This document shows, piece by piece, positions 2,352-61,682 of a stretch of DNA of 64,000 nucleotides (its first letter is position 1; the number at the start of each line of letters is the position of its first letter). The DNA lies in assembly GCF_023897015.1 (NCBI RefSeq), contig NZ_JAMHFY010000006.1, forward strand, positions 1 to 64,000, in the 5' to 3' direction. Origin of the DNA: Desulfosporosinus nitroreducens. GTDB lineage: Bacteria; Bacillota; Desulfitobacteriia; Desulfitobacteriales; Desulfitobacteriaceae. The notes beneath the pieces were generated by a model. The model did no database searches, was not told the origin of the DNA, and was given only the letters and a program-made list of their open reading frames with translations. The translations under genes and the position numbers were made by a program.

Positions 2352-3113
2352 AACAAGCTTAAAAACGCTTTCCGCATTGTGCATAGTGTGAAATGCTGTA
2401 TCCTCAAAGCTTAGATTTTTAATTTCTGCAAGTTTCATGACAACTTCTCGAACATAGGTTGGTTCATTACGCTTTCCACGTCGCGGCTCTGGCGTCAAAT
2501 AGGGGGAATCTGTCTCGACGAGAATCCGATCTATTGGGGCTTTCTTTGCTACTTCGACTGTATGTCGAGCATTTTTATACGTCACTGGTCCGGCAAAAGA
2601 GAGATAAAATCCTAGCTTTAAGAGAATCTCGGCCATTTCCCAAGATCCGGAATAACAATGGAATATCCCTCCATATAGAGGAGGATGGGCCTTAACAATC
2701 TCCAAGATATCATGATGAGCATCACGATCATGGATAATAATTGGTAAGCCGGCTTCATTCGCTAGTTTTATCTGTTGAATAAAGACCTCTTTTTGAACAG
2801 AGCGTGGAGACAGGTCGCGATAATAATCCAGCCCAATTTCACCCCAAGCCACTACTTTGGGTTGCTTAGCTAACTCCAGGAGTTTTTCCCAGGTTTCCGC
2901 TGTCACCCCTTCAGCATTATGTGGATGTACCCCTATCGCCGCATAGATAAAATTATAGTCTAGTGCTAACTTCACAGATCGTCCGGAGGAAGGGAGGTCG
3001 TATCCTACATTCGTCACCCGGGAAATCCCCGCCGATTTCATGCGAGTTACGACTTCTTGAAAATCGTCCGCATAGCTGGGGTCATCTATATGTGCATGCG
3101 TATCCCAAATCAT
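2349..3113 (-). CDS. tatD: TatD-family metal-dependent hydrolase
   Basis: A 254-residue TIM-barrel hydrolase of the TatD/YabD family, predicted to be a cytoplasmic metal-dependent DNase. The THAHID metal motif is at residues 5-10, the GEIGLDYYRD motif around 91-100, HDRD near 128, HCYSG near 152 and ETDSPY near 201. The ATG overlaps the metG stop codon (ATGA), so the two are translationally coupled, as in Bacillus metS-yabD. Length is typical. The exact substrate is unknown. Confidence 0.95.
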   Translation of the reverse strand: MIWDTHAHIDDPSYADDFQEVVTRMKSAGISRVTNVGYDLPSSGRSVKLALDYNFIYAAIGVHPHNAEGVTAETWEKLLELAKQPKVVAWGEIGLDYYRDLSPRSVQKEVFIQQIKLANEAGLPIIIHDRDAHHDILEIVKAHPPLYGGIFHCYSGSWEMAEILLKLGFYLSFAGPVTYKNARHTVEVAKKAPIDRILVETDSPYLTPEPRRGKRNEPTYVREVVMKLAEIKNLSFEDTAFHTMHNAESVFKLV

Positions 3114-5059
3114 TTGACCTGCGCCCCTCCAGGAAGCTTTTTATTGATGGTGATAACTTCCAACACTTCCCCTTTTGAGGCCGCTAATATCATGCCTTGT
3201 GATGTAATTCCCCTTAGTTTTGTAGGTTTTAGATTAGCCACCAGGACGATGTATTGATTTACGAGGTCATCCGGGGAATAATGCTTGGCAATACCAGAGA
3301 CAATCGTGCGTACTTCTCCTGCTACTTCAACTTCCAACTTCATCAGTTTATCTGTCTTTTCTACTTTTTCTGCGCTTAGAACTTTCCCTACACGCAAATC
3401 TATTTTAGCAAATTCATCAATGGTGATTTCTTCTTTAATTGGCTCAAATTCAAATTCCGGTGCCTGTAAACTCTCTGGGCTCTCATTTAGATTTTTGTCC
3501 ACCGTTGCCGTCTCCTCTGCTGTCAAATACTGTGCTAAATCAATTCTTGGAAAGAGAGGTTCACCTTTTTGGACCTTTATACCTGCTTCTGCTATGCCCC
3601 ATTGATCCGCTTCTTCCCATCTGATCAGCCTTTCATCTTTGCCAAGGAGCTCACAAATTTTAGAGGGCAACCCTGGCATAAACGGAGCAGTCAAAATTGC
3701 CATAATTCGAATACATTCTGCAAAGGTATAGAGAACAGTATCTAAGCGCTCTTTTTGTTCCTCATGTTTAGCCAATGCCCACGGAGATGTCTCATCGACA
3801 TATTTATTGCATCGTGCCACAAAACGCCAAATTTCTTCAAGAGCACTTGCAGGATCGCACTTTCTTAAACTTTCATCGACTGCCTTTTTAACCTCAGAAC
3901 TCAGAGCTTTCAATTCCAGCTCCAGCGCCCCATCTTGACCTGGACGAGGAATCATCCCATCTCGATACTTGACAATCATCGCTAGGCTTCGGGATACAAA
4001 ATTACCAAAATCATTAGCCAAATCACTATTTATACGTTCAACCACATTATCCTCTGAATAGGTACCATCAGTTCCTGCTTGCATCTCACGCAATAAAAAG
4101 TAACGTATGGCATCAGAGCCATATCTCTGGATCAACGCAAAAGAGTCCTGTACATTTCCACGGGATTTAGATATTTTTCCACCATCTTTAGTCAAGTACC
4201 AGCCATGACCATAGATAACCTTAGGGAGAGGAATATCGATAGCCATAAGAATAATCGGCCAAATGACCGCATGAAAACGAACAATATCTTTCCCCATAAT
4301 ATGCACATCGGCAGGCCAAAAACGTTTATAGTTCTCTCCATCAGGGTAACCCAGCGCAGAAATATAATTTATCAAAGCATCAAGCCATACATAAACAACA
4401 TGTTTTGGGTCAAACGGCACTTTAATCCCCCACTGAAACGTGGTGCGTGAAACACAGAGATCCTCTAGACCGCCTTCAATAAAACGCAGCATTTCATTAC
4501 GTCGAGAAACAGGTTGGATAAATGTTGGATGCTCTTCGATATACTTTAGCAAGGCACCTTGGTACTTTGAAAGACGGAAGAAGTAACTTTCCTCCTTCAG
4601 CAATTCCACTTCTCGGCCGCAATCAGCGTTAGGGCATTTTCCGTTAATCAACTTATTTTCCATCCAGAAGGTTTCACAAGGAGTACAATACCAGCCTGAA
4701 TACTCAGACTTATAGATGTCCCCCTGTTCGAACAGTTTAGTAAAAATTCGTTGTACAACTACTTGATGACGTTCCTCTGTTGTTCTAATAAAGTCATCAT
4801 TAGAAATATCTAAAGCTTGCCACAACTCTTTAAAGCGTTCTACTACCCCATCAACATAAATCTTAGGGTCGGTATTATTGGCTTCCGCGGTGCGGACAAT
4901 TTTCTGTGCATTTTCATCCGTCCCTGTTAAGAAGTGTACTTGATCGCCCTGCAATCTATGATAACGAGCTAAGGTATCTGCTGCAACTGTTGTGTACGCG
5001 GTTCCGATATGGGGGCTGGAATTCGGATAAAAAATTGGAGTCGTTATGTAGTATTTCAC
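3110..5059 (-). CDS. metG: Methionyl-tRNA synthetase
   Basis: A 649-residue class I synthetase that charges tRNA-Met. It has the HIGH-type motif (SPHIGTAY, residues 15-22), a zinc knuckle pair (CTPC near 127 and CPNADC near 141), a KMSKS variant (KISKS near 298) and a C-terminal OB-fold tRNA-binding domain from about residue 545. The start is GTG at 5059 with GAGAGGGAG upstream. Fused C-terminal EMAP/Trbp domains are common in Firmicutes MetRS. It lies upstream of tatD and divergent from abrB. Confidence 0.98.
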   Translation of the reverse strand: MKYYITTPIFYPNSSPHIGTAYTTVAADTLARYHRLQGDQVHFLTGTDENAQKIVRTAEANNTDPKIYVDGVVERFKELWQALDISNDDFIRTTEERHQVVVQRIFTKLFEQGDIYKSEYSGWYCTPCETFWMENKLINGKCPNADCGREVELLKEESYFFRLSKYQGALLKYIEEHPTFIQPVSRRNEMLRFIEGGLEDLCVSRTTFQWGIKVPFDPKHVVYVWLDALINYISALGYPDGENYKRFWPADVHIMGKDIVRFHAVIWPIILMAIDIPLPKVIYGHGWYLTKDGGKISKSRGNVQDSFALIQRYGSDAIRYFLLREMQAGTDGTYSEDNVVERINSDLANDFGNFVSRSLAMIVKYRDGMIPRPGQDGALELELKALSSEVKKAVDESLRKCDPASALEEIWRFVARCNKYVDETSPWALAKHEEQKERLDTVLYTFAECIRIMAILTAPFMPGLPSKICELLGKDERLIRWEEADQWGIAEAGIKVQKGEPLFPRIDLAQYLTAEETATVDKNLNESPESLQAPEFEFEPIKEEITIDEFAKIDLRVGKVLSAEKVEKTDKLMKLEVEVAGEVRTIVSGIAKHYSPDDLVNQYIVLVANLKPTKLRGITSQGMILAASKGEVLEVITINKKLPGGAQVK

Positions 5060-22916: not shown

Positions 22917-23188
22917 TAGCCGTACACCCTTGATCGAACCATCGCCTCCGAACGTTACCTTGGTCGGCAAACTCAATTCAGGCAACCTCACGGCACACAA
23001 AACGCTCTCCTTAGTGCTGCTTCCGTCAAGATCTGACACGGTTCGGAGTGTCCTGTTGCGTGAGACCAAAATCTCATCGTTGCCTTCCAAAGACAGCTTC
23101 ACAGGCGTGGACCTTTCGCGGGAATTCCACCTTGCTAGAGCGGGCTGCAAGTTACAGGGAACCGCTACCTCCCCATCTAGTACGGCTA
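22917..23188 (-). ncRNA. ffs: Signal recognition particle RNA, large bacterial type
   Basis: The 5' and 3' ends pair perfectly over 9 bp (TAGCCGTAC with GTACGGCTA). The 5' part carries GGGGAGGTAGCGGT, typical of Clostridia Alu-type SRP RNA. The domain IV tip reads ATCTTGACGGAAGCAGCACT, with the conserved GGAAGCAGCA loop that binds Ffh. The length of about 272 nt matches the long Firmicutes form with an Alu domain. It lies between tRNA-Ser and dnaX, the same place as Bacillus scr. Confidence 0.95.
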
Positions 23189-27610: not shown

Positions 27611-27636
27611 ACTAACACCCTCCCATGCCTGTAAAA

Positions 27637-27745
27637 AGAAAACTTGGATAGCGCCAAGCGCTGGCCTAGGATGGCCGAGTGTCCCTGTAGCCATGGATGG
27701 CGAGAAGGGACCCCTTCTGGCGCTTGGCGTTCGCCTTAGTGAACT
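27637..27745 (-). repeat. Dispersed intergenic repeat, locus 1 (serS leader)
   Basis: A minus-orientation copy of the modular repeat family. It carries the GGTCCCTTCTCGCCATC head, CAGGGACACTCGGCC, GGCCAGCG, and a terminal CTTGGCGCTATCCAAGTTTT hairpin plus T run. It has no copy of the 37-bp unit. The terminal hairpin ends about 27 nt before the serS start codon; the other end abuts the pdxT stop. Confidence 0.8.
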
Positions 27746-33760: not shown

Positions 33761-33766
33761 CTATAG

Positions 33767-33885
33767 AAAACTTGGCTAGCGCCAAGACTTTTATTCGCCG
33801 GCGTTCGCCATAGTCGCACTTATGCGCAGGCCATAACTCTAACAGAAATGTTCAAAGTTAGAGCATCACATAGATGGCAGTGGTG
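33767..33885 (-). repeat. Dispersed intergenic repeat, locus 2 (gyrB leader, degenerate)
   Basis: Minus-orientation copy. One unit (33832-33870) has a CTCTAAC/GTTAGAG stem with an enlarged loop. It is followed by an AAGTGCGACTATGGCGAACG block matching loci 1 and 3, and then by CTTGGCGCTAGCCAAGTTTT, nearly identical to the end of locus 1. The end lies about 19 nt before the gyrB start, next to the ribosome site. Confidence 0.7.
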
Positions 33886-34000
33886 TCTTATTAGCATGAA
33901 AGTTTGACTAGTACCAAAAAATACCTTCAACCTTATTATTGTACACTAAAATTTAAGATGTATCAATTTAAAGCTAATTTAAACTAAATGCTTTAATTTT

Positions 34001-38663: not shown

Positions 38664-38692
38664 GGCCGCAATTATGTGGCCTTTTTTTTACA
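38663..38692 (+). terminator. Terminator after rpmH
   Basis: A GGCCGCA/TGTGGCC hairpin with an AT-rich loop followed by eight T residues, starting at the rpmH stop codon. Confidence 0.85.
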
Positions 38693-38697
38693 GTCTC

Positions 38698-38727
38698 AAA
38701 GTATAACTTATCGTTACATACTTTATG
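38698..38727. repeat. Inverted repeat at the head of repeat locus 3
   Basis: AAAGTAT and ATACTTT flank a 16-nt interior and lie immediately before the repeat head TGGAAGATCCCTTCTCGCC. A stronger 16-bp version stands in the same position at locus 5. Confidence 0.5.
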
Positions 38728-38730
38728 GAA

Positions 38731-38896
38731 GATCCCTTCTCGCCATCACGGTACCTAGTGCCATCCATGGCGGTGCTCTTTCTTAACCATCCTTGGTTGA
38801 GTCTTGGCTGCAGGGACACTCAGGCCGTCTATGGCCAGCGATTAAGTGTAACTATGGCGACCGCCAACGCCTGTGGCTTGACGGAAACCAAGTTTA
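38731..38896 (+). repeat. Dispersed intergenic repeat, locus 3 (rpmH-rnpA)
   Basis: Plus-orientation copy: head ATCCCTTCTCGCCATCACGG, one 37-bp unit at 38770-38807 (stem TTAACC/GGTTGA, loop ATCCTT), CTGCAGGGACACTCAGGCC, GGCCAGCG, the AAGTGTAACTATGGCGACCG block and an imperfect end hairpin before CCAAGTTTA. It fills most of the gap between rpmH and rnpA; no gene is visible in that gap. Confidence 0.85.
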
Positions 38897-48380: not shown

Positions 48381-48720
48381 GCAAGACACTTGCTTAAGCG
48401 GTCTCCGTAGCCTTATGCGCCGGCATATTTATAGACAAGTGTCCCTGCAAACATAACTAGAATTAAGATGATTGAGGTTAGTATACCCCATTGATGTTAT
48501 AGGTGTCTTGATGGCGTAAATCGACCGCTGGCCATGGACCGATGTGTCCCCATAGCCATGACTCAACCTAAGATGGTTGTAATAAGAGCACCGCCGCGAC
48601 TTGAGCAAGGATGATCGAGGGTGGTACACCGCTATAGATGGAATCGGGTACCCTGAATGGCGGAAATGAACCATGGCCAAGGACTGCCGAGTGTCCCTGT
48701 AGCTAAGGACTGAGGGAAGA
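48381..48720 (-). repeat. Dispersed intergenic repeat, locus 4 (parB-DUF554), tandem array
   Basis: Minus-orientation array of about two and a half elements, with three copies of the GTGTCCC tract (near 48439, 48544 and 48690). Units lie at 48594-48631, 48556-48593 and 48452-48490. It is the only locus whose orientation opposes the surrounding genes, and it is the most diverged and the longest. No gene is visible in 48366-48892. Confidence 0.8.
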
Positions 48721-48771
48721 AATCTTATATTATGTGTTAACTATATGTTGTGCTTTCTAGCTAGTAATAAA

Positions 48772-56488: not shown

Positions 56489-56702
56489 GGTCCCTTCTCG
56501 CCATCAGGGCATCTATGACATCCATCCATAGGGTGTACTAACCTCGAGCATCCTTGTTCGAGTCTATGACGGTGCTCTAATCTTAACCATCCTTGGTTGA
56601 GTCATTGATGCAGGGACACTCGGCTATCTTTGGCTAACGGTCCCTTCTCGCCTTCCATGACGTCGTTACAAAACTCAAACATCTTGTTTAAGTCATGGCA
56701 GG
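56489..56702 (+). repeat. Dispersed intergenic repeat, locus 5 (livJ-livH)
   Basis: Plus-orientation copy: head GGTCCCTTCTCGCCATCA, unit A 56532-56569 (stem CTCGAGC/GTTCGAG), unit B 56570-56608 (CTTAACC/GGTTGAG), GCAGGGACACTCGGC, then a second head GGTCCCTTCTCGCC and a degenerate unit 56661-56698. It ends about 60 nt before the livH start. The stretch 56263-56763 holds this, the terminator and the inverted repeat, and no gene. Confidence 0.88.
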
Positions 56703-58617: not shown

Positions 58618-59365
58618 AAAACTCTCTAAGTCATTTGGTGGATTAAAAGCAGTTTCAAATCTAAATATTGAGATTAACGAAGGGGAACTAATCGGATTGA
58701 TAGGTCCGAACGGGGCCGGAAAAACTACGGCTTTTAATTTACTCACAGGAGTGTACGAACAATCAGAAGGAAAAATATTGTTTCAGGATAAGGATATGCG
58801 AGGGCTTAAACCCTATCATGTCACCCAGCGAGGAATGGCACGGACGTTTCAAAATATCCGATTATTTAGCGATTTGAGCGTCATAGATAATGTCAAGATA
58901 GCCTATCATCAACGGAGTTCATATGGAGTTTTTAGTGCGTTCCTTCGCCTGCCAAGCTATTACGCTGGTGAAGAAGAGATGCAACAAAAGGCTATGGAGT
59001 TGTTAAAGATCTTTAATCTTGACCATAAGGCAGAAGAAATTGCGAAGAATTTGCCTTATGGTGAACAACGACGCTTGGAGATTGCTCGTGCCCTGGGAAC
59101 TGAGCCTAAACTCCTATTGCTGGATGAGCCTGCTGCAGGTATGAATCCTCAAGAAACACATGACCTGATGAATCTTATTCGTTGGATACGGGAAAAGTTT
59201 AAGCTTACGATTCTGTTAATCGAGCATGATATGTCTTTAGTTATGGGTGTGTGTGAACGCATCTATGTTTTAGATTACGGAATGATTATAGCTCAAGGGG
59301 CACCAGATGAAATCAAGAGCAATCCCAAAGTCATTGAGGCTTATCTAGGGGAGGAGGTTGTCTGA
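58598..59365 (+). CDS. livG: Branched-chain amino-acid ABC transporter ATPase LivG
   Basis: A 255-residue ATPase: Walker A GPNGAGKTTAFNLLTG (about 36-51), signature YGEQRRLEIARAL (about 152-164), Walker B LLLLDEPAAGMNP (about 170-182), and an extended BCA_ABC C-terminal segment. ATG at 58598 has AAGGGTG upstream. It ends by overlapping the livF start by 1 bp. Confidence 0.96.
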   Translation: MPLLKIEKLSKSFGGLKAVSNLNIEINEGELIGLIGPNGAGKTTAFNLLTGVYEQSEGKILFQDKDMRGLKPYHVTQRGMARTFQNIRLFSDLSVIDNVKIAYHQRSSYGVFSAFLRLPSYYAGEEEMQQKAMELLKIFNLDHKAEEIAKNLPYGEQRRLEIARALGTEPKLLLLDEPAAGMNPQETHDLMNLIRWIREKFKLTILLIEHDMSLVMGVCERIYVLDYGMIIAQGAPDEIKSNPKVIEAYLGEEVV

Positions 59366-60069
59366 TGCTTGTCCTTGAAGATGTCAATGTTTACTATGGT
59401 GCCATTCATGCCCTTAAAGGGATTTCCCTCGAGGTTAATCAGGGCGAAATTGTAACCCTAATCGGCTCAAATGGTGCAGGGAAAAGTACAAGTTTAAAGA
59501 CTATTTCGGGATTGTTGCGACCAAAAGATGGCAAGGTAATGTTTAAAGGTGCAGACCTGGCCAGTATAGCTCCGCAAACTATTGTTGCCCAGGGAATATC
59601 TCAGGTTCCAGAAGGACGGCGAGTGTTTGCCAATATGACTGTTATCGAGAACTTGGAACTTGGAGCATACTTGCGTAAAGACAAAGCAGGTATTAAAGAA
59701 GATATGAAACGAGTATATGAGTTATTTCCACGTTTGCTTGAAAGGAAAAGCCAACTTTCGGGTACCTTATCTGGTGGAGAACAACAAATGCTAGCGATGG
59801 GTCGAGCCCTAATGTCCAAACCCCAGTTGCTTCTTCTCGATGAACCTTCAATGGGTTTAGCTCCAATCTTGGTAAAACAAATATTCTCAATCATAAAAGA
59901 AATTAATGCTAGCGGAACAACTATTTTACTTGTAGAACAGAATGCTCATATGGCGCTTTCTATAGCCAACCGCGCTTACGTATTAGAGACAGGTAAAATT
60001 GTGCTTTCAGGAGATGCTAAACAATTAGCGGCTAGTGAAGAAGTCCGTAAGGCCTACTTAGGAGGCTAA
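59365..60069 (+). CDS. livF: Branched-chain amino-acid ABC transporter ATPase LivF
   Basis: A 234-residue ATPase: Walker A GSNGAGKSTSLKTISG (about 33-48), signature LSGGEQQMLAMGRAL (about 134-148), Walker B LLLLDEPSMGLAP (about 154-166). It is the last gene of the liv operon; the overlap with livG indicates coupling. Confidence 0.96.
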   Translation: MLVLEDVNVYYGAIHALKGISLEVNQGEIVTLIGSNGAGKSTSLKTISGLLRPKDGKVMFKGADLASIAPQTIVAQGISQVPEGRRVFANMTVIENLELGAYLRKDKAGIKEDMKRVYELFPRLLERKSQLSGTLSGGEQQMLAMGRALMSKPQLLLLDEPSMGLAPILVKQIFSIIKEINASGTTILLVEQNAHMALSIANRAYVLETGKIVLSGDAKQLAASEEVRKAYLGG

Positions 60070-60111: not shown

Positions 60112-60255
60112 TGCCCCATCTAGCCATCACGGCACTATGCCATCCATGGTGGTGTACTAACCTCGAACATCTTTGTTCGAGTCATGGCGGTGCTCTAATC
60201 TCAACCATCCTTGGTTGAGTTTTGGCAACAGGGGCACTTGGCCTTATGGACATGA
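60112..60255 (+). repeat. Dispersed intergenic repeat, locus 6 (livF-CBS)
   Basis: Plus-orientation copy: GCCATCACGGCACTATGCC head, unit A 60151-60187 (stem CTCGAAC/GTTCGAG, loop ATCTTT), unit B 60188-60225 (stem CTCAACC/GGTTGAG, loop ATCCTT), ACAGGGGCACTTGGCC. Both unit stems are perfect here. It ends about 100 nt before the CBS gene. A GCAGAT/ATCTGC hairpin without a T run (60096-60114) just precedes it. Confidence 0.87.
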
Positions 60256-60352
60256 CAAAAGCGGCTTCTAAGCATCTGCCGGCTACACTAGCTTGGTGCC
60301 AAAGAGTGACATTAACAAGGCTGAGATCTAAAGTGGAAAGGGGTAATTGTAC

Positions 60353-60979
60353 ATGTATGTTCGTCAATTTATGACAGCTCAAGTTTTCACAGTCACTCCG
60401 GAAAAAACTATTGCAGATACCATGGCTCTTATGCGAGAAAAGAAGATTAGCCGAATGCCGGTCGTAGAAAAGGGGAAACTTGTTGGATTAGTAACAGATG
60501 GGGATCTTCGCGAGGTCTCTCCTTCCCCGGCAACAACTTTGAGTATTTTTGAACTCAACTATCTCATAGCTAAAACCCCTATTCGTGAAGTAGCGATTAA
60601 AAAGGTTGTGACCTGTCACCCTGACACTCAAATTGAGGACGCAGCTTTGTTAATGCGAGATCACAAAATTGGAGGATTGCCTGTCGTAGATGGAGGCAAG
60701 GTAGTCGGGATTATCACGGGCTCAGATATAATGGATGCTTTTTTAGATATTATGGGATTTCGTAGCCCAGGACAGCGCGTAATGATTGAAACTAAGGATC
60801 AAGTTGGTGTTATGCTAGATCTTGCTCTATCAACCAAGGAGTTTGATGTTAATATTGGAAGTTTAGCCGTATATCATCTCAGAGATAATCAAATTCAAAT
60901 TCTTGCACGCCTCCAAGGTGATCAAGTAGCTGAAGTTGAAGCGTCCCTAGAAAAAAAGGGATACCAGATCAAAAAATAG
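60353..60979 (+). CDS. CBS-domain/ACT-domain protein (AcuB-like)
   Basis: A 208-residue protein with two CBS domains (about 5-60 and 75-130; MTAQVFTVTPEKTIADT and VTCHPDTQIEDAALLM) and a C-terminal ACT-like domain (about 138-205). Such proteins sense adenosyl ligands and, through ACT, amino acids. The position after the liv operon suggests a possible link to branched-chain amino acids. ATG at 60353 follows GGAAAGGGG. Confidence 0.88.
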   Translation: MYVRQFMTAQVFTVTPEKTIADTMALMREKKISRMPVVEKGKLVGLVTDGDLREVSPSPATTLSIFELNYLIAKTPIREVAIKKVVTCHPDTQIEDAALLMRDHKIGGLPVVDGGKVVGIITGSDIMDAFLDIMGFRSPGQRVMIETKDQVGVMLDLALSTKEFDVNIGSLAVYHLRDNQIQILARLQGDQVAEVEASLEKKGYQIKK

Positions 60980-61584: not shown

Positions 61585-61682
61585 GGGGATGGATGGTGGC
61601 TGGTGCTGCTCCCGGACTTCAAATCCGCGTGTCGGGACGCAGAACGTTCCGAGGTGTGTTCGATTCGCACGCATCCCCGCCA
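61585..61682 (+). tRNA. selC: tRNA-Sec (TCA), selenocysteine tRNA
   Basis: A 98-nt tRNA, anticodon loop CTTCAAA giving TCA, which reads UGA. It has a long 8-bp variable arm (TCGGGACG with CGTTCCGA), T loop TTCGATT, extended acceptor GGGGATG/CATCCCC, discriminator G and encoded CCA. By eye, the eighth acceptor pair is G-G and the D stem needs G-U pairs. It matches SelB encoded at 52762. Confidence 0.9.

Follow-up and report, generated by a model that had tools for sequence, protein, structure and literature searches.

Background

Repetitive extragenic palindromic (REP) sequences of the GTAG- and CGTC-tagged families are described as palindromes of 20-40 bp with a terminal tag, often arranged as dimers, and the CGTC families are said to be without a dedicated transposase (PMC3733652); the main text of this source makes no mention of Desulfosporosinus, Desulfitobacterium, Dehalobacter or Firmicutes. 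REP hairpins are also reported as targets of insertion sequences, i.e. IS1397, IS621, ISPsy8 and ISPpu9/10 (PMC1525189). Among open-licence PMC papers, none was found that describes the elements reported here in its title or at the start of its abstract, and none that links Desulfitobacterium with repetitive extragenic palindromes or Dehalobacter with repeat elements and hairpins; the printed literature may still hold such a description.

We report that hairpins in a 64,000-nt stretch of Desulfosporosinus nitroreducens DNA (the whole stretch analysed, referred to as the window) are probably modules of miniature non-coding mobile cassettes inserted at hairpin tips, with stems that covary at the DNA level. 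The two cassettes, K and M54, would be miniature palindromic mobile DNA whose new feature is tip-targeted self-nesting.

The K and M54 cassettes and their hosts

Four DNA searches of the genome to which the window belongs (G000; 5.46 Mb, 95 contigs) gave 71 merged sites, which on reading are built from a small set of blocks, referred to as B, M54, K, T and E2. K is a dispersed cassette of 53-55 nt, ACGGCACCTTGCC-ATCCAT-GGCGGTGCTCTAATCTCGAAC-ATCCTT-GTTCGAGT, and M54 a second cassette of 53 nt, GGTCCCTTCTCGCC-ATCCTT-GGCTACAGGGACACTCGGCC-ATCCAT-GGCCAGC. Common to both is a plan in which an outer stem surrounds GCC-loop-GGC and is followed by a second hairpin; most loops read RTCCNT, which is ANGGAY on the opposite strand. 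Among the other blocks, B is a larger host of about 105 bp when empty (C1:164749), T a third insert, and E2 a further host element. We observe E2 as a larger dispersed palindromic element that has two tips with the loop ANGGAY and is a host for M54 (examples are L369, L344 and G000:C55:18505-18629).

Within the genus, K is present in 22 and E2 in 28 of 29 genomes. For M54 the figures are 47 of 73 genomes and 12 of 22 genera within the order; a sample taken across the phylum, with a stricter cut-off, gave 17 of 398 genomes, from 12 of 266 genera. The 65 record stretches that match an exact M54-like pattern belong to Desulfosporosinus (several species), Paradesulfitobacterium ferrireducens or Bacillota MAGs.

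In a tally of at most four commonest loops per group, which for the second loop sometimes caught stem letters, the commonest M54 loops of 15 genus groups are RTCCNT, the exceptions among those listed being CTCCGT (once) and CTCTTT (twice). Both the outer stems (GTCCC/GGGAC, GTCGC/GCGAC, GCAGC/GCTGC) and the second stems (GGCC/GGCC, GACC/GGTC, GTCC/GGAC, GATC/GATC, GTTC/GAAC) differ between groups, and the constant loop to which the initial annotation of the window had drawn attention thus recurs beside differing stems. Hairpins with an NTCCNT loop and a stem of at least 5 number 17 of 303 in own-genome loci (expected 3.1), 55 of 827 in other loci of the genus (expected 8.4), 18 of 185 in genus g14 (expected 1.9) and 4 of 119 in family f18 (expected 1.1; 0 of 36 at a stem of at least 6), all counted in loci selected for carrying the modules. 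Most loci studied are best-scoring matches and were selected as such.

Several copies elsewhere have surroundings of their own. Many loci of genus g14 (L275-L313) show a different composite host around M54, with GTGCCACAAT..CCGC..GGCC hairpins in many copies; genes for RuvA/RuvB and RNase J flank up to three of the g14 loci each, perhaps as the same gaps in sister species. In family f18 (L251, L261, L265 and L266) a further short repeat, like GCGACCGAAAGGGAGCATCAGTAGTACCCGAAGGGTG, lies beside M54. Relatives of M54 lie in a common flank at L246, L247 and L260 (two genomes of genus g3), with a possible 8-bp repeat, GGTCTTTG, on both sides; by eye, the flank at L247 runs straight into a 16S rRNA gene, and M54 relatives in such a position may be transcribed with the pre-rRNA. 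L296 (G230) has two identical M54 copies, 1349-1402 and 3080-3133, which by eye seemed to lie in the T-arm of fragments resembling tRNAs; no tRNA is predicted there by ARAGORN.

Organisation of the 60-kb locus

The hairpin locus at 60 kb sits between an ABC-transporter gene (59365-60069; Pfam ABC_tran), which ends a row of genes for branched-chain amino acid transport, and a CBS-domain gene (60347-60979). The window also has a selenocysteine tRNA gene at 61585-61678 (plus strand; Rfam RF01852) and, according to Rfam, a large SRP RNA at 22920-23185 (minus strand). The parts of the locus and the other nests in the window are listed in Table 1.

Table 1. Cassettes, hosts and hairpins in the window
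Feature	Position	Strand	Basis or remarks
Left remnant of host M54 (GCCCCATCTAGCCATC)	60113..60128	+	Read from sequence; not scored as M54 alone
Left arm of outer K (ACGGCACTATGCCATC)	60129..60144	+	Sequence and sister-genome comparison
First K hairpin, GGCAC..GCC-ATCCAT-GGT-GGTG	60131..60154	+	Helices 1 and 2 of the K alignments
Second hairpin of inner K, CTCGAAC-ATCTTT-GTTCGAG	60162..60181	+	
Right part of outer K (second "37-bp unit")	60183..60220	+	
Second hairpin of outer K, CTCAACC-ATCCTT-GGTTGAG	60200..60219	+	
Right remnant of host M54 (TTTGGCAACAGGGGCACTTGGCCT)	60221..60244	+	Match 60205-60244, E 0.0007
Nest of M54 pieces, K units 56503-56564 and 56563-56605 and a third, degraded K 56637-56699	56489..56699	+	
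Partly decayed nest of M54 and K pieces	48434..48722	-	
Host B (38692-38731, 38843-38896) holding M54 (38732 to 38840) holding one K	38692..38896	+	K match 38745-38808
B part 33763-33825 and degraded K 33830-33887 ("locus 2" of the initial annotation)	33763..33887	-	
Insert-free M54 (27659-27712) within B part	27635..27712	-	

The initial annotation had described hairpins with matched stem differences at several loci, and this observation holds in part. All four stem pairs with hexaloops that it gave for its loci 6 and 5, i.e. the two second hairpins of Table 1 and, in the copy at 56.5 kb, CTCGAGC-ATCCTT-GTTCGAG and CTTAACC-ATCCTT-GGTTGAG, occur exactly in the window sequence. The pair CTCTAAC/GTTAGAG at locus 2 (33837-33843 and 33857-33863) does not stand: these arms enclose 13 nt rather than a hexaloop, and in the K register, on the minus strand, the stem is CTTTGAAC/GTTAGAG and imperfect. 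A perfect 7-bp stem with a 6-nt loop is found at only 13 positions in the whole window, so that two within 58 bp are not due to chance; nor is the hairpin family, given the presence of K in most genomes of the genus. The ATCTTT loop of the inner K deviates from the usual RTCCNT type.

Comparison of copies shows that the locus consists of one K within another K within a remnant of M54, and that the window strain lacks 17 nt of this nest. The 3' end of the left arm of the outer K (60144) is the junction at which the sister genome G006 has 17 extra nt, between two GCCATC repeats (a loss in G000 or a gain in G006), and since these 17 nt are absent from G000 the nest looks like tandem 37-bp units. 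Such units, as proposed in the initial annotation, can indeed be seen, but they are a secondary appearance of the nest. In the left M54 remnant, GCCCC is able to pair with GGGGC at 60231-60235, and in genome G022 the same locus has a K adjoining a right half of M54 that is easier to recognise.

Between the same flanks, G006 has TCGGCACTATGCCATC and CATGGCGGTGCTCAAAACTCAACC... enclosing 55 nt that are a complete K. Among 650 trial excisions in G006, the best leftover K match came from removing exactly this 55-nt inner K; the scores are 59.2 bits for the inner K and 52.7 bits for the outer K once rejoined, which then covers model positions 2-64, and the median over the trials is 31.3. A nest of the same type is present at L143 in genome G027, with the outer stems GCGCC/GGCGC outside and ACACC/GGTGT inside; here the inner K scores 71.2 bits and 64-66 bits are left after 54-nt excisions, the best of which is displaced by 3 nt to the left of where it was expected (66.2 vs 64.1 bits). 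L122 has three successive left arms.

Orthologues of the CBS gene are present in 26 of the 29 genomes of the genus, and the 330 bp upstream were scanned in 25 of them (the 26th, G016, offers 44 bp). K is found upstream of the gene in four of the 25, i.e. G000, G006 and G011 (two units) and G022 (one), and the same four have part of M54 at this locus; neither K nor M54 was detected there in the other 21 at E 0.05. Candidate M54 remnants without K in G004, G007 and G012 and a remnant in G028, picked out by eye, have no profile match at E 0.05 and are left out of the counts. Given these differences among genomes, the nest turns over within the genus.

Hairpin tips with and without inserts

The apical loops of other hairpins hold the cassettes at a single point, AAG^GAT, which reads ATC^CTT on the complementary strand; written on one strand, AAG^GAT is the entry point of both K and M54. 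An empty E2 tip reads CAGTGTACA-AGGAT-GTACACTG, and in a filled one CAGTGCACAA and GGATGTGCACTG enclose a 53-nt M54. The distance between the arms of E2 hairpin 1 was 0 nt in 19 and 53 nt in 12 of 35 pairs, and 123, 131, 317 and 2959 nt in one each; the 123-nt case is an M54 carrying a T module (L345), which gives three nested levels from E2 tip to M54 to T. For E2 hairpin 2 the distance was 0 in 21 and 53 in 3 of 24 pairs. Looser E2 patterns, which asked only for the distances -1, 0, 52 and 53, gave -1 in 8, 0 in 20 and 53 in 15 for hairpin 1 (n=43), and 0 in 32 and 53 in 5 for hairpin 2 (n=37). The arms of the M54 inner hairpin (n=120) are 1 nt apart in 93 copies, 0 in one, 53-56 in 15 and 36-110 in 11; the 53-56-nt inserts are K-sized and the examples read are K. 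In the M54 second hairpin (n=98) the distance is 1 nt in 85 and 53-55 nt in 5, with long distances ranging from 146 to about 1500 nt, and a few arm pairs of E2 and M54 are 215 to 2959 nt apart.

Because M54 sits in the tip of a host hairpin, as in E2, its flanks themselves form a stem: among 121 flank-distinct copies (drawn from 261, E up to 1e-6) 16 have flanks that pair as a stem of at least 6, whereas 200 shuffles averaged 0.74 such copies and never exceeded 4. The B site reads GGAAGCATAAG when empty (at C1:164749) and GGAAG...GCATAAG when filled. M54 also occurs inside an M54 with a different outer stem (L272 and L273 in G373). The T module does not fit the AAG^GAT point cleanly.

Since the cassettes sit in such loops, the insertion point is marked by the constant loop, and further loops come in with every cassette that is added. 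Judged from these sequences, the nearly constant loop looks like a docking site for the next cassette and not like a sign of a conserved RNA. The direction, i.e. insertion, is inferred from the copies; excision could also give empty sites.

Stem covariation and strand symmetry

Stem pairing is kept by compensating changes. We aligned 21 of the 26 near-full own-genome K matches, five hybrid or degenerate ones being left out before aligning. In the helix of the initial annotation 91.7% of the cells are paired, and 5 cells are changed on both sides compared with 1.6 in shuffled alignments (a value reached by 7 of 500); the pairs changed on both sides (2 vs 1.2; 172 of 500) and the further pair types (203 of 500) are not significant in these 21 copies. 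For the whole of K in the same copies, 89.4% of cells are paired and 17 are changed on both sides vs 6.8 shuffled (0 of 500), with unremarkable values for pairs (6 vs 4.6; 107 of 500) and further types (110 of 500). The own-genome M54 alignment (26 of 31 matches) has 4 cells changed on both sides vs 0.3 and 2 such pairs vs 0.3 (15 of 500), with further pair types reached in 108 of 500 shuffles.

Larger alignments were fitted to the models from 52 (K) and 55 (M54) loci hand-chosen from 388, and in these related copies inflate the cell counts. With 62 distinct K copies, 92.5% of cells are paired, 12 of 16 pairs are changed on both sides vs 6.5 shuffled (0 of 500), among them 5 of the 7 pairs of the helix first annotated, and there are 66 both-side changed cells vs 23.3 and 30 further types vs 22.8 (0 of 500). 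With 62 distinct M54 copies from many genera, 95.4% of cells are paired, 8 of 13 pairs are changed on both sides vs 3.9 (0 of 500), and 57 both-side changed cells vs 12.2 and 16 further types vs 13.6 (19 of 500) were counted. A covariation test, as suggested in the initial annotation, is thus significant on 62 K copies, but by its stricter measures not on the 21 own-genome copies; the stems are paired in other copies, and compensating changes beside a near-constant loop are borne out by covariation in K, M54 and E2.

The kinds of change were read from alignments made on sequence alone, of 178 distinct M54 and 90 distinct K copies. Of the M54 pairs, the one that varies most is CG in 71, GC in 46, AT in 4 and TA in 3 copies, with 9 others listed, and K pair 46-60 is GC in 59, AT in 16, GT in 4, AC in 2 and other in 3. 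Changes in the E2 hairpins are mostly from one Watson-Crick pair to another (TA 16/CG 8, AT 21/GC 6, CG 11/AT 11).

Covarying stems would also be expected if the hairpins were RNA elements such as mRNA stabilisers, terminators or protein-binding sites, with selection on the RNA fold, and the initial annotation had taken the folding to be maintained probably as RNA. A folded RNA tolerates G-U on the folded strand, so that GT should far exceed AC among the departures from Watson-Crick pairing. The GT:AC ratio is 56:42 in K and 29:19 in M54 (sequence-only alignment), i.e. 85:61 together (E2 excluded; a slight GT excess, p = 0.057), and 3:3 in the E2 hairpins (1:2 and 2:1), which have nearly no wobble stage. 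The SRP RNA and five tRNAs of the window gave 23:1, and the Fisher p of 1.6e-4 for 85:61 vs 23:1 serves as a guide, since the cells of one family depend on each other and six single molecules make up the control. Near-parity against 23:1 in real RNAs makes the pairing look DNA-level; taken together with the E2 changes, it agrees either with pairing in DNA or with a templated correction of one arm by the other. The elements have no Rfam 15 match at the gathering threshold (the seven matches in the window are the SRP RNA and tRNAs), and both the presence of K in just 4 of 25 genomes at the locus and the cassettes that interrupt the loops speak against a conserved RNA. In favour of an RNA, the element lies on the coding strand of its neighbours in 30 of 41 same-direction gaps of the own genome (p = 0.004, crude gene calls); this 30:11 bias may reflect a terminator-like end of B or a transcript-level effect. 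On balance we consider RNA elements an unlikely explanation. The interpretation in the initial annotation is accordingly retained for the pairing and the constant loop and finds no support for the RNA level.

Dispersal and gene context

Of the 71 own-genome sites, 41 lie between same-direction, 13 between divergent and 9 between convergent ORFs, 2 at edges, and 6 inside an ORF call of at least 150 aa (crude ORF calls). No clear replichore pattern was apparent by eye in the copy lists. Genome G026 has one M54 core in 7 of its 8 top-scoring copies, and these seven occupy four different settings: two places in B, an E2 tip and another hairpin. Eight top-scoring loci of genome G014 have an identical 53-letter K core, seven with the same B-M54 at the left and one in a different M54, and six of the seven also have a common further insert at the right, which L120 lacks. 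As the copies of both genomes were selected for equal or near-equal score, the sameness of the core is by choice and the differing surroundings are the result; they suggest that single cassettes and larger composites both spread.

Dispersed, mostly intergenic palindromes are also what classical REP sequences moved by a REP-associated Y1 tyrosine transposase (RAYT) would look like. Y1 genes (PF01797) are present in 34 of the 47 M54-positive genomes of the order, but also in 15 of the 26 M54-negative ones (a hand tally in which RAYT proper is not separated), and no Y1 match was found in G050 (one contig with 24 M54 copies), G052 (20 copies), G053 (26) or G021 (12). The own-genome M54 consensus is without a GTAG tag and each cassette has two hairpins, and we regard movement of this kind as improbable. 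Neither did the flanking genes point to an enzyme: among 98 ORFs (of 128 nearest ORFs extracted for distant copies) no transposase or recombinase is included in the 25 most frequent of 151 Pfam families, the top families being housekeeping ones, e.g. RuvA/RuvB and RNase J with three members each. A candidate IS91-like transposase beside M54 at L250 and L253, suggested by a motif, was dropped; by Pfam the two L250 ORFs are a peptidase M56/M23 and a holin.

The copies might also have arisen without mobility, by slippage or tandem duplication, with stems equalised by template switching between arms in replication. The tandem look of the 37-bp units and the existence of tandem M54 arrays (L387 and L388) agree with this, and changes between Watson-Crick pairs without wobble are what templated correction predicts; template switching may explain the covariation itself. 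An origin without any mobility is nevertheless hard to reconcile with the same cassette in unrelated surroundings, with exact 53-nt filled sites and with the K-in-K nests of G006 and L143, where the outer K has its two arms, and we therefore consider it improbable. Finally, it is very improbable that the hairpins are decoys for CsrA, a reading that would draw on minus-strand loops that read ANGGA (ANGGAY with N free), on the minus-strand stem ACAAGGAUGU, which resembles the CsrA binding consensus, and on the one csrA gene in the own genome, since the ANGGA strand is mostly antisense (sense in just 11 of 41 same-direction gaps), no wobble excess is seen on one strand, csrA is near-universal in the order (41 of 47 M54-positive and 19 of 26 M54-negative genomes by hand tally, so that co-occurrence says little), and csrA was not found in G013 (98% complete), which has 14 M54 copies.

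Discussion

For mobile cassettes at hairpin tips, the arrangement of the copies suggests that a hairpin-specific DNA recombination would make the insertions, with the loop as target and the pairing kept for this purpose. A putative enzyme would act on extruded or single-stranded DNA hairpins, and movement of whole cassettes and of composite elements would spread them. The stems would covary either since DNA pairing is needed as target or substrate, or since the arms are restored by templated correction. Tentatively, we go one step further and propose self-nesting transposition: gene-free cassettes of 53-55 nt might enter the AAG^GAT loop of any such hairpin, their own included, by means of a new or unrecognised enzyme for which hairpins are both substrate and target, giving recursive growth at the tips in several Bacillota families.

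If mobile cassettes are the correct explanation, the combination of constant loop and covarying stem, which is usually a sign of RNA, becomes the footprint of a DNA insertion rule, and this counter-example comes with a simple test, the balance of G-U and A-C. The cassettes would also provide a bacterial mobile unit of very small size for which empty and filled sites are exact and the order of insertion can be read. Their wide spread without a known transposase opens the missing enzyme to direct search.

Comparison with known systems

In K and M54 alike, an outer stem encloses an inner hairpin and a second hairpin follows, and at 53-55 nt and 53 nt these cassettes differ from the single stem-loop of 20-40 bp that characterises REP sequences. 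The own-genome M54 consensus, GGTCCC...GGCCAGCG, has no GTAG; in other genera M54 often ends in GGCCGTCA or GGACGTCG, which contain CGTC. A Y1 gene in the carrying genome, as RAYT-moved elements have it, was not found in the four genomes named above. With regard to MITEs, the empty-filled pairs of E2 and B leave room for a target duplication of one G at most, the B site being incompatible with a longer one, and the cassette ends, GG... and ...GC, form no long inverted repeat. In the very small mobile repeats of cyanobacteria, tiny repeats reportedly lie within other repeats; we know of no hairpin-tip rule for them.

The repetitive hairpin-forming elements of sponge mitochondria are likewise invading hairpin repeats of intergenic DNA and, unlike K and M54, are mitochondrial (PMC2800124). 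The likeness to IS1397-type elements is insertion inside a palindrome, in the case of ISPsy8 at the symmetry axis of the predicted REP hairpin (PMC1525189). These elements encode a transposase, whereas the inserts reported here, a few arm pairs 215 to 2959 nt apart set aside, are gene-free, 53-55 nt long (in E2 and M54 inner tips mostly 53-56 nt) and themselves carry the target loop. REP sequences as described in PMC3733652 share with K and M54 the short palindromes mostly between genes, the covarying stems and some copies inside genes; what sets K and M54 apart is that they are double hairpins of 53-55 nt sitting in each other's loops.
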